Below the pieces are notes generated by a model. The model was not told the origin of the DNA. It saw nothing but the letters and a program-made list of their open reading frames with translations, and did not search any database. A stretch of 64,000 nt of DNA from Plantibacter elymi (nom. nud.) (GTDB lineage: Bacteria; Actinomycetota; Actinomycetes; Actinomycetales; Microbacteriaceae). The DNA is taken from NCBI RefSeq assembly GCF_900177795.1, contig NZ_FXWJ01000003.1, positions 496,001 to 560,000 on the forward strand. Reading direction: 5' to 3'. Below, piece by piece: positions 25,293-29,313 of this stretch (position 1 is its first letter; each line of letters begins with the position of its first letter). The translations under genes were made by a program, and so were the position numbers.

Positions 25293-26273
25293 TCAGCGTC
25301 CGCTCGGCGGCGTTCCTCCGCCGCCAGCCCCGCCACCGCCGGACGGCGCGGCACCGGCGGTCGGCGTCGTCGTGGTGTCCACCCGGACGGTGAGCGCCAC
25401 CTGGTACCCGGAGGTCGCGTCGCCCGTCACCGTCGCGAGCTGCAGGGCACCGCCGTCGTCGCCGAAGACGTTGTCGTCGTCGAGACTCACCTGGGCGAGG
25501 TTCGCGCTCGATCCGTCGTAGCCGGACAGCGCGTAGACGGTGTCGCACGCCGCCTGCGGGAGGGCGACCTGGGAGGTCGCGATCGCGTTCGCGGAGTCGG
25601 AGATGTCGTTCACCGTGGGGTACACCTCGAAGTGGATGTGCGGCCACCGGCCCGAGTAGCAGGCCGGGAAGATCGAGGTGTACGAGACGGTCCCTGAGCT
25701 GTCGGCGACCTGGACACCGCGCAGGTAGGTCTCGTCCTCGATCCCGTCGGAGTACATCGAGTAGCCGCCCGACGCGTCGCAGTGCCAGACGTACACGGCG
25801 ACATCGGCGAACGGCGCGTCACCGTTCGCCATGTCGAGGATGGTCAGCGAGAGGGCCATGGGGACCCCGCTCGCGGTGGTGCCGGACCCGATGCTCGACC
25901 GGATGTCGCTGCGGACGATGCCGGACTCCTCGAGCACGTCGGCTCCGTTCGAGCCGTCGCCCGGGTAGGGACCTGCGGTCTCGTCGGGGATCTCGCCCGA
26001 TGGGAGGTCGCCGGTCGCGGTCGCGGTGCTCGTGCCGGAACTCGCGGCGCCGGTGCTCGTGCTGCTGCTACCGGACGCCCCGGTGGAGCAGGCGGCGAGC
26101 GCGACGGCCCCGACCCCGGCACCCACGAGGCTCAGCACCGTGCGTCGGCTGACGAGGGTTCCGAGGTCGAACGCGACGCCCTGGTCGACGACCTCCTCGT
26201 CGGCCCGGTCGAGCAAGCGGCCCTCGTAGGCCGGGCCGTCCGGGGTGGTCTCGGGTGTCGGGATCCTGCTCAT
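25293..26273 (-). CDS. Intradiol ring-cleavage dioxygenase-like Tat lipoprotein (internal start)
   Basis: 326 residues from ATG 26273, with GAAGGCGAGG upstream supporting this start. The N-terminal 45 residues are acidic; then comes the twin-arginine signal [20 protein letters not shown] ending in a lipobox Cys. The mature protein has a Ser/Thr/Gly linker followed by the intradiol fold: [33 protein letters not shown] and the iron-ligand region [18 protein letters not shown] with Tyr and two His. A Gly/Pro tail ends it. Such exported members probably act on extracellular aromatics or extracytoplasmic oxidations, not established. It is followed by tatA and tatB. Confidence 0.85.
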
Positions 26274-27365
26274 GGTGCGCCTCGCCTTCGTCTGCGATCG
26301 GTGGTCTCGATCGGTCGTAAGACGAGCATCGGTGTGCCGGCTATGGGCTTCCTCTGAGCTGTCCATACGTCGTCGATGGGTCTGCTGGGCGGTTGCCGAG
26401 CCCGCATCGTCCCACCAGGCGAGGACCCGGGAACCGATGAGCGTGAGCCACTTCGACGGTTCGCCCTCCGGCACGTCGGTCTCGAACCAGACGCGTCCGG
26501 GCAGCGGCCGCCCCTGGAGCCAGGTCCCGTCCGACCGGCGAGCCGCGCGGACGAGCTCGACGGCGTCGGCGAGGCGCGGATCCGGCGGCGCGCCATCGGC
26601 GACGGAGGCGTCCCGGAAGTGGTCGAGGGCGGCGAGGGCGCTGTAGCGGTAGCGGTTCGGGAAGACCAGGTGGTCGACGAACGAGCCGACCCGCTCCCCG
26701 GTCGTCGCCCGGTTGAGCAGTCGTCGCGTCAGGAGGTACTCCTCGCCACCCTGCCGGGCCTCACGAACGCTCGAGTCACCCGTGTACGCCTCGTACGCCA
26801 GGAGACCGCGCACCGCGTTGAGGGTCGAGTGGAAGGAGGACCGCACCGAGTCGCCCTCCTCCGCCTCGCAGTTCCAGCCGCCGTCGGCGAGGCGATGCGT
26901 GGTGAACCAGGCGGCGAGCGGCGAGACATCGACGCCGAGCCAGGCGCCGGTGGCGAGCGTGAACGAGTTGATGCAGACGTCGACCTCACCGCCCCAGTAC
27001 GGCAGATCGTCGTACTCCCACCGACTGTTGACCGCCAGGCGCTCGGCCGTGTCGGTCAGGACGGCGGCATCCACGCCCCACTCACGGAGGTCCTTGAGCG
27101 CCCAGGTGGTCCCGACCCAGGGTTGCCCGGGCTCCTCCTGCTCCGCACTGCCGAAGAAGCCCGCCGGGAAGTACGCACCGCCCGCCCACTGCCCGTCGGG
27201 GTCCTGATGTGCGAGCAGCTCGGCCCCGAACCCGGTCGTCGCGACGGTGCTCCGCGTCGCCTCCCAGACCTCGGGTGGCGCACCCGCCAGGTCTCGTTCG
27301 ACCTGCCACCGGAGGGCCGGATCGGCGTCGAGCAACCAGTCGAGCAGCTTCGGATCGATCGCCAT
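25293..27365 (-). CDS. 690-codon frame: terpenoid-cyclase-like domain fused in frame to Tat dioxygenase
   Basis: From ATG 27365 the frame stays open through two unrelated domains. Residues 1 to about 320 resemble the alpha/alpha-toroid fold of squalene cyclase or prenyltransferase proteins, with repeated DG-W motifs ([36 protein letters not shown]). Residues about 321-364 are a His/Arg/Thr-rich linker. From residue 365 it continues as the Tat lipoprotein dioxygenase listed separately. TAGCGT lies exactly 6 nt before ATG 27365, so the first domain has its own leaderless promoter. An N-terminal extension would bury the Tat signal, so full-length protein should not be exported; either the stop codon was lost or two products are made. 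Function of the first domain is unknown. Confidence 0.7.
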
Positions 27366-27407
27366 GCGGGAACGCTACTCCCCGACGGCGCGCACCGACA
27401 GAGCGGA

Positions 27408-27683
27408 TCAGCGCGGGGTGGCCTTGAGTCCGTTGGGCGGTCCATCGCGGTCGGAGGCGGTGCGCGGGACGTCGTACCGCACGAGCGCATCGGCACGCTC
27501 GAGGCTCGGCTGCACGCTCATCAACACCCGCTTGAGCGGATCGATGTCCCAGGCGATGACGAAGTACGCGTCGGCACCGCCCCGATCCCGGCGCCGTTCG
27601 ATGACCGCCTTCGGGATCACCGGGTCGTTCCGCATCACGAGCCACGTGTCGTGGTCGAGGCGGATCGGACGCGGACGGGTCAT
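27408..27683 (-). CDS. Small conserved protein (91 aa) with SOS-box promoter
   Basis: 91 residues starting MTRPRPIRLDHDTWLVMRND. It is soluble and basic, with a conserved-looking core DAYFVIAWDIDPLKRVLMSV and a helix SLERADALVRYDVP. Similar small proteins occur across Microbacteriaceae without a known function. The promoter is telling: TATGTT lies exactly 6 nt before the ATG, with CTTGCC 18 nt further upstream, and a perfect LexA-type box overlaps the -10. That suggests a leaderless, DNA-damage-inducible gene. It lies 42 bp downstream of nothing on its strand; the next gene (cyclase-like) starts 43 bp after its stop and may be read through from it. Confidence 0.75.
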   Translation of the reverse strand: MTRPRPIRLDHDTWLVMRNDPVIPKAVIERRRDRGGADAYFVIAWDIDPLKRVLMSVQPSLERADALVRYDVPRTASDRDGPPNGLKATPR

Positions 27684-27686
27684 GTG

Positions 27687-27702
27687 TCGAACATACGTTC
27701 GA
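27687..27702 (-). promoter_or_regulatory. LexA (SOS) box
   Basis: TCGAACATACGTTCGA is a perfect 6-bp inverted repeat with a 4-bp spacer and fits the actinobacterial SOS box TCGAAC-N4-GTTCGA at every defined position. It overlaps the -10 element of the 91-residue gene and ends 3 nt before its start codon. Confidence 0.8.
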
Positions 27703-27744
27703 ATGTCGCACGAGGCAAGTCGAGGATCGAGCTGCTTAACTTTG

Positions 27745-27803
27745 CTTAACCGCTTGACCACCTTCTCAGCACCCCGCTACGGTAACTGCGTAACCGATTA
27801 ACC
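27745..27803. promoter_or_regulatory. Two LacI-type operator copies upstream of fructan operon 1
   Basis: CTTAACCGCTTGACC (27745-27759) and CGTAACCGATTAACC (27789-27803) agree at 12 of 15 positions, are each pseudo-symmetric around CG, and start 44 bp apart, about four helical turns. They lie 20-78 bp upstream of the GH32 start codon. The LacI regulator at 32616 is the expected ligand and could loop the DNA between them. Confidence 0.6.
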
Positions 27804-27822
27804 ACTCACTGCAGAGGACGTC

Positions 27823-29313
27823 ATGAACCAACGAGGGTTCCACCAGCCGAACGGCGCATGGGTCGGAGACGTCATCCCCTGGCAGGAGGACGGTGTCTTC
27901 CACCTCCTCTACCTGCACGAGTCGCGTCGCGTGCCCAAGATCGGTATGCCGTGGCATCGCGTGACCACCCGGAACCTCGTCGACTTCGACGAGCTCGGCG
28001 AGGCACTGGCGTCGGGCGGACCGTCCGCGCCGGACTTCAACGTCTACACGGGGAGCATCGTCCGGGGTCCCGACGGGGTCCACCACGTCTTCTACACGGG
28101 ACAGCACCCGGAGCGCCGCGGTGCCGACGGTCTGGCGCTGCAACTCGTCATGCATGCCGTCAGCACCGACGGCATGCGCACCTGGGAGCGCCGGGAGGCC
28201 GACACCTTCGGCGCCACCGCAGGGTATGAGACCGCCGACTGGCGGGATCCCTTCGTCTTCTGGGACGAGGACGCGGCCGTCTGGCGGATGCTCATCACCG
28301 CCCGACACGCACACGGCCCGGAACGGCGTCGTGGCGTCATCGCCCAATGCATCTCCACGGACCTCTCGAGCTGGGAACCGGTCGAGCCGTTCTGGGACCC
28401 GCGCCGCTACATCGCCCACGAGTGCCCCGAGGTCTTCCAATGGGGCGACTGGTGGTACCTCGTGTACTCCGAGTTCAGTGAGTCGTTCACGACGCGCTAC
28501 CGGATGTCGCGCACCCTGCACGGCCCCTGGCTCGTCCCCGAGCACGACACACTCGACGGGCGCGCCTACTACGCGGCGAAGTCCGCCGCCCGCGACGGAC
28601 GTCGGTTCTTCTTCGGCTGGATCGCCTCGCGTGAGGGAGCCCACGACGCGGGCGCCTGGCAGTGGGCCGGCACCATGTCGGTCCTCGAAGCGGAGCAGCG
28701 TGCCGACGGCAGCCTCGCCTTCCACCCGCCCGCCGAACTGCGTGACACGTTCGCACCCGCCGACGAGCCGACTGACACCGTCGTCGCCTCGGGCACGGTG
28801 CTGAGCGCTCCGGACGGATACGCCGACGCTCTCTCGGCCGTGGACGCGCCGACGTCCTTCCGGCTGGTCGCCCGATTCGACATCGCCCCCGGCACGACCG
28901 AGTGCGGCGTCCTCCTCCGGGCGAGCGACGACGGCGACGAGGGGTACGTCCTGCGCCTGGAGCCGAAGCGCGACCGCCTCGTCTTCGACCGCTGGCCGCG
29001 CTCCAGCACCGGCACGGAGCAGTGGCAGATCTCCGGCGACGTCCCGTTCGTCGTCGAGCTCGAACGCCCCTGCCACCTCGCCCCCGGCTTGCACGAGCTC
29101 GAGGTGATCGTCGACGGCGACCTGTGCGTCGCGACCGTCGACGACGCGGTCGTCCTCAGCACGCGCCTCTACGACCGACCGACCGGTCGCGTCGGCGTCT
29201 TCGTCGGTGAAGGGACCGTCACCGTCGAGGCGTGCACGCTCCTGGAATGCGACGGCGGCGACTCCGACGACGACCCCACCTCACACCGACTCCTCACCAG
29301 CACCACGTCCTGA
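27823..29313 (+). CDS. Glycoside hydrolase family 32 protein, divergent (beta-fructosidase type)
   Basis: 496 residues with a five-bladed propeller and a C-terminal beta-sandwich. The canonical WMNDPNG nucleophile motif is replaced by GAWVGDVIPW with Asp16 as candidate nucleophile. The transition-state motif is WRDPFVFW (Asp142) and the acid/base motif AHECPEVFQ (Glu200). This belongs to the GH32 branch with a GD-P-type first motif. No signal peptide, so it is cytoplasmic; it probably splits imported fructosides. AGAGGA precedes the ATG. It is the first gene of an operon with a CUT1 importer, a LacI regulator and two further GH32 genes. Confidence 0.85.
   Translation: MNQRGFHQPNGAWVGDVIPWQEDGVFHLLYLHESRRVPKIGMPWHRVTTRNLVDFDELGEALASGGPSAPDFNVYTGSIVRGPDGVHHVFYTGQHPERRGADGLALQLVMHAVSTDGMRTWERREADTFGATAGYETADWRDPFVFWDEDAAVWRMLITARHAHGPERRRGVIAQCISTDLSSWEPVEPFWDPRRYIAHECPEVFQWGDWWYLVYSEFSESFTTRYRMSRTLHGPWLVPEHDTLDGRAYYAAKSAARDGRRFFFGWIASREGAHDAGAWQWAGTMSVLEAEQRADGSLAFHPPAELRDTFAPADEPTDTVVASGTVLSAPDGYADALSAVDAPTSFRLVARFDIAPGTTECGVLLRASDDGDEGYVLRLEPKRDRLVFDRWPRSSTGTEQWQISGDVPFVVELERPCHLAPGLHELEVIVDGDLCVATVDDAVVLSTRLYDRPTGRVGVFVGEGTVTVEACTLLECDGGDSDDDPTSHRLLTSTTS

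Follow-up and report, generated by a model that had tools for sequence, protein, structure and literature searches.

On the minus strand of the window, the whole stretch of 64,000 nucleotides of Plantibacter elymi DNA that was analysed, a short reading frame lies directly behind a putative LexA binding site, which raises the question of whether this gene belongs to the SOS response and what its product might do there. A literature search found no paper on LexA or the SOS response in Microbacteriaceae, and searches for SOS work on Clavibacter, or on Curtobacterium with mitomycin, returned none on the subject as judged by title; a UVC RNA-seq study of Curtobacterium aetherium has been published (excerpt of PMC12029717). 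Little seems to have been published on SOS in this bacterial family.

Small gene and its promoter

On comparative grounds, the 91-codon reading frame (Table 1) is a real gene. Its product is encoded in all seven Plantibacter genomes, that of the window included, with 90-100% identity. The ATG at 27683 (minus strand) is very likely the start codon because in two of the seven orthologues no earlier start codon is in frame with it. An upstream GTG, which would give a product of 117 aa, was rejected because two orthologues lack such a start. The protein, described as small and basic in the initial annotation, has 91 aa and a pI of 10.1. A search of Rfam with positions 26500-28500 of the window gave no match at the gathering score.

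Table 1. Features of the small gene and its promoter in the window, and family loci lying next to a DUF7882-like gene.
Feature	Position or loci	Strand	Basis
LexA (SOS) box, 12/12 defined bases, 3 nt before ATG	27687..27702	minus	sequence; identical in 7/7 Plantibacter genomes
-10 hexamer TATGTT inside LexA box	27690..27695	minus	sequence; similar hexamer there in family boxes
-35 hexamer TTGCCT, 17-nt spacer	27713..27718	minus	sequence and TTG in 19/19 family promoters of this layout
91-codon gene, family member found first here	27408..27683, stop included	minus	ORF and orthologues
DUF7882-adjacent loci	L013, L034, L036-L040, L121, L127, L128, L133, L136, L156		

A LexA box had been reported here to agree with the consensus at every defined base and to overlap the -10 hexamer of a leaderless promoter, and this was confirmed, coordinates included. 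The box reads TCGAACATACGTTCGA, or TCGAACGTATGTTCGA on the gene's own strand, and fits the motif tCGAAC-N4-GNNCGa derived from ChIP-seq in Streptomyces venezuelae (excerpt of PMC9380542). From TATGTT (27695-27690) to the ATG there are 6 nt, and given the spacing of -35, -10 and ATG the mRNA should begin at or beside the ATG, that is, be leaderless. The family boxes that were compared carry TATGTT, TATATT, TACATT, TATCTT or a TACGTT-like hexamer in the -10 place. No promoter was listed at the small gene by a generic sigma-70 promoter scan because the -35/-10 pair agrees with the consensus at 8 of 12 positions, one short of the 9 that the scan demands.

The perfect box pattern occurs once in the window, against 0.01 occurrences expected from shuffling, and its stricter RNNY form occurs at five places in the genome, the reversed control pattern at none. 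When up to two mismatches were allowed, 751 places were found in the genome versus 152 for the reversed control; since loose matches are this frequent, only near-perfect boxes at promoters carry much meaning.

Conservation in Plantibacter

Each of the seven Plantibacter genomes has the identical box, separated by 3 nt from the start codon of the small gene. In their alignment, all 16 columns of the box were identical, compared with 22 of 71 in the stretch upstream. As a palindrome ~120 nt ahead of the start of a glycosidase-like gene (by eye), which runs divergently from 27823 on the plus strand, the box might serve that gene instead, the small gene being incidental. That this is so appears highly improbable: the divergent neighbour, otherwise ~0.12 kb away, is found ~0.9 kb off in two of the genomes, yet the box, the -35 hexamer and the ATG of the small gene remain together there, and the same layout recurs at family members elsewhere. 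The neighbour comparison pooled ORFs of all frames, and real frames therefore stand together with antisense ones in its clusters.

A second member of the protein family, 107 aa long and 26-27% identical to the window protein, is encoded on contig C7 of the window's own genome. It has a perfect box, a TTGACA-17-TATGTT promoter and an ATG 3 nt after the box, and it was found in all seven Plantibacter genomes, each time with a perfect box at that distance.

LexA boxes elsewhere in the genome

LexA is encoded in the genome (TIGR00498, E 3.3e-70, above the cut-off). Boxes of the same kind are located upstream of recA (TCGAACATCCGTTCTA) and ruvC (TCGAACGGATGTACGA), lexA itself has a 10-of-12 box upstream, and further boxes accompany a cassette of a small protein and a dnaE2-like gene (L004) and a radical SAM gene (L056). 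Gene names were assigned by eye from the translations for recA, ruvC, dnaE2 and the Rv2578c-like radical SAM gene. The perfect match at L041, on contig C3, lacks a neighbouring gene start of this sort and is possibly a chance occurrence.

The proposal of the initial annotation that the small gene is a member of the SOS regulon is strongly favoured by this setting (lexA, boxes at recA and ruvC), by the box retained in all seven Plantibacter genomes, by the perfect box at the second member and by the enrichment of boxes in the family described below. The box of the small gene lies at the promoter, follows the actinobacterial consensus and covers the -10 element. LexA would bind it and thereby cover that element, so that the promoter would be closed to RNA polymerase. 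Upon DNA damage, RecA would be activated and LexA would cleave itself, after which the small protein would be made from an mRNA starting at or beside its ATG, presumably by leaderless translation. Judged from the sequence, the small gene is probably a LexA-repressed, leaderless SOS gene, a reading held with good confidence.

Two further perfect boxes were recorded in this genome. The one at L042 (G000:C8:564510-564525) lies 17 nt before an ORF of 86 codons without a Pfam match, which is a candidate for another SOS gene. The one at L001 (G000:C5:220829-220844) lies immediately before a phage-like gene for an M23-type endolysin (by eye) and suggests a prophage gene under host LexA.

Protein family in Microbacteriaceae

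The protein had been called an orphan, a description that did not survive comparison: in addition to the paralogue in the same genome, a profile of 24 members (A1) matched 104 of the 398 genomes of Microbacteriaceae, drawn from 37 of 85 genera, the other 294 genomes having no match. With the window protein alone as query, 51 of the 398 genomes were matched. Three genomes were matched in an order-level sample of 297, and all three were Microbacteriaceae. The family is patchy in its spread and often present in more than one copy per genome. With nothing matching in the libraries searched, it is an undescribed family of the Microbacteriaceae.

Family DNA was fetched for profile matches down to E = 7.4e-7. 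From 100 rows, 96 members were obtained by leaving out rows with E > 1e-5, proteins shorter than 60 aa, and entries at L140, L141 and L157 that were duplicates or fragments. Identical proteins were merged (L006 stands in for the window protein), and for L100, a single gene broken by a stop, the box was measured from the second part. A box with at least 11 of the 12 bases within 160 nt upstream was found for 29 of the 96 members (13 from Plantibacter, the rest from seven further genera), versus 6 of 1743 control stretches of equal length from the same loci. The expectation that homologues would share the box was therefore borne out only in part: it is kept in all Plantibacter orthologues, but in the wider family 67 of the 96 members, including the phage-borne clade described below, are without a near-perfect box, so control by damage does not extend to every member. 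On a tree of 92 rows and 85 columns (32 open forks; long rows L141 and L157 included), boxes with at least 10 of 12 bases required no fewer than 10 changes of state, and boxes were therefore gained or lost several times.

Among the 29, box positions cluster, the box beginning 19 nt before the start codon in 16 members and 24 nt before it in 6. All 17 rows compared that have the 19-nt layout carry TTG in the -35 place, with 17 nt to the -10 inside the box, as do L193 and L197; this makes 19 of 19 family promoters with a box of at least 11 of 12 bases at that distance. The same arrangement of -35, box and ATG was seen in the distant members L142, L149, L193 and L197, the last two of which match the family profile at 95%. 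Seven relatives with a GTG start have the box 24-25 nt upstream and at most 3 of 6 -35 bases at the tested spacing.

Boxes lying 3 nt before an ATG were also collected over all 398 genomes, and 70 such places were found in 59 genomes versus 4 for the reversed pattern. All were inspected except G253. Twenty of the 70 belong to this family (14 in Plantibacter, one each in G130, G062, G203 and G153, plus L193 and L197). Many of the remaining places have only short or doubtful frames, and some precede other small proteins, a DUF6504-like one or a radical SAM gene (by eye). A second group of small proteins (A8: L173, L184, L192, L209, L210) was encountered in four Microbacteriaceae genera; its members are 83-90 aa long, contain the motif WRVTRxDGxVLGYVE and share both the promoter layout and the 3-nt distance between LexA box and ATG. 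Kinship of this group with the family was unsupported (hhalign probability 15%), as was that of L178, which was compared likewise.

The sole recurrent neighbour found was a DUF7882-like gene, from a multicopy family of small proteins. It lies within 1.6 kb, on either strand, at 13 of 95 family loci in five genera (Table 1), two of which (L034, L136) have boxed members, and one such neighbour protein was compared with PF25355. Eight genomes hold 5 to 16 DUF7882-like genes each, so that about 1 locus in 100 would be expected to be adjacent by even spread. The association of DUF7882 with family loci is recurrent; the window's small gene has no such neighbour.

Protein properties and predicted fold

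No family match was obtained for the window protein in Pfam, PHROGs or NCBIfam, and Pfam gave only EccE (E 0.046) and DUF3124 (E 0.35) below threshold. The 24 members had no match in Pfam and NCBIfam at E 0.01, and so none to a model of DinI, SulA, YneA or another known SOS effector, not all of which these libraries need contain, and none of the 24 matched a known defence family in PADLOC. A search of PDB sequences with the family profile yielded nothing usable (best E 0.31).

Over 93 rows, the highest 19-residue hydropathy was 1.11, which indicates no membrane segment. An AlphaFold2 model (10 sequences) has strands at residues 7-10, 13-17, 24-32, 38-44 and 54-58 and a helix at 61-71, with block pLDDT of 81-87 for residues 11-70, a mean of 73.6 and a low-confidence tail from residue 74. 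The protein is thus predicted to be soluble, with five strands, a C-terminal helix and a floppy tail. Foldseek found no match at E 0.001 among PDB and viral models, and the best hit of VIA-align was YkuJ (Z 5.0, a level that the tool calls common).

The initial annotation had suggested a DNA-damage checkpoint or repair accessory factor. No family or fold pointing to either was found, and the patchy spread together with the phage copies argues against an essential checkpoint. A small DNA-binding factor, acting as repair accessory or regulator with its sheet gripping DNA as in AP2-like domains, would suit the basic character of the window protein and of the family (median pI 9.7 over the 93 rows), and AP2 domains are among the weak structural matches (7et4, Z 4.0; 1gcc, Z 3.1). 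These matches are, however, at noise level, rank below YkuJ and are mixed with SH2 domains, and 11 of the 93 rows have a pI below 7; this role is a minority reading, rated on a par with host-phage conflict (below).

Phage-borne copies

Homologues were found in seven viral contigs (L094-L097, L098, L158, L160). Four of these contigs, L094-L097, form a boxless clade with three Plantibacter paralogues (L012-L014). The clade has a support of 99 and is placed beside the Plantibacter SOS clade with a support of 82. In L094, the order is an integrase gene (PHROG, E 3.8e-33), small genes and the family gene, followed by tail and endolysin genes on the opposite strand. A motif scan detected an integrase upstream in four of the seven contigs (L094, L095, L096, L160), three of which were checked with PHROGs, and none upstream in L097, L098 and L158. 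The regions of L012-L014 contain an integrase-like gene in two of three cases and matches to the tail or endolysin genes of L094 in all three, some of them short. The boxless clade adjoining the Plantibacter SOS proteins is phage-borne. With the window protein alone as query, neither 50,697 annotated phage records nor the annotated plasmid records gave a match at E 0.1, and a scan of viral contigs with alignment A5 gave no relative. In L097 (277-695), the phage-borne member of the family comes directly after three tRNA genes (Glu, Asp, Phe), which may mark the insertion site of a prophage.

The protein may be a piece of host-phage conflict, either prophage cargo serving exclusion or anti-induction that came under LexA control on domestication, or a host gene that phages acquired. 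The seven viral contigs, the three boxless Plantibacter copies in regions with phage genes, the position of the phage clade beside the SOS clade and the patchy, multicopy family would all fit such a history, while no PADLOC model matched any of the 24 members and the window protein alone found nothing in the annotated phage records; the idea is a minority one. A brake on growth or division, halting growth during DNA repair as SulA, YneA, SidA and DivS do, is judged somewhat less probable. Known SOS division inhibitors are lineage-specific, as is this family, which is also under LexA, small and often multicopy. Gram-positive SOS division inhibitors are generally membrane proteins, whereas the proteins of this family are without a membrane segment, the profile found no match in 294 of the 398 genomes, and relatives occur in phages, in some cases close to an integrase.

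The reading tentatively put first, by analogy with known modulators, is that the protein docks onto a partner in the damage response, either DNA or another protein, and so modulates SOS or prophage induction. A modulator is preferred over a core repair enzyme because the protein is small, belongs to no recognised enzyme family, is lineage-specific and multicopy, and is carried by temperate phages. The likelihoods attached to these four readings of activity overlap. A bolder form of the modulator reading, which is unlikely, would have a lineage-wide SOS effector of Microbacteriaceae whose host version is made only after damage, and whose phage version, without a LexA switch, is made constantly in the lysogen and restrains RecA-driven prophage induction.

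Comparison with known systems

The locus resembles the LexA/SOS regulon known from Actinobacteria such as S. venezuelae and M. tuberculosis in that its box fits tCGAAC-N4-GNNCGa (excerpt of PMC9380542) and overlaps the promoter, and that lexA is present. It differs in that the regulated protein has no match in Pfam, NCBIfam, PHROGs or PADLOC. Small size and a LexA box are also features of the mutasome-cassette proteins DUF6504 and its relatives (L004, L176 by eye, this genome); the small protein of L004 matches DUF6504 below the cut-off (E 0.0065). They belong to another sequence family, and the L004 protein precedes a dnaE2-like gene (by eye), which the window gene does not.

For the modulator reading, DinI was one type used for comparison. 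Its fold is unlike the order of five strands followed by a helix that is predicted here. The other type was Hex of phage 434 (excerpt of PMC3564112). The proposed likeness is one of role, by analogy: such modulators are small, soluble and linked to SOS, with host and prophage versions (for Hex, according to the same excerpt). Unlike them, the 24 family members have no Pfam match. LexA-controlled genes as such are known; what is new is a recurrent undescribed family with a common arrangement of LexA box and promoter, and with phage copies that lack the box. The family offers a candidate, open to testing, for a damage effector specific to this lineage, and it may connect SOS with the control of prophages.

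Flanking sequences

Downstream of the small gene by 43 nt, an ORF of 690 codons (25293-27365, minus strand) could share a transcript with it. An unrecognised N-terminal protein seems to be joined there to a dioxygenase-like lipoprotein (by eye) with no stop between, and the ORF may represent two genes. On the other side, half sites of the TTAACCG/TTAACC type are repeated at 27735-27815, before the divergent gene at 27823, and are possibly operators of a LacI-type regulator (by eye) encoded at ~32.5 kb.
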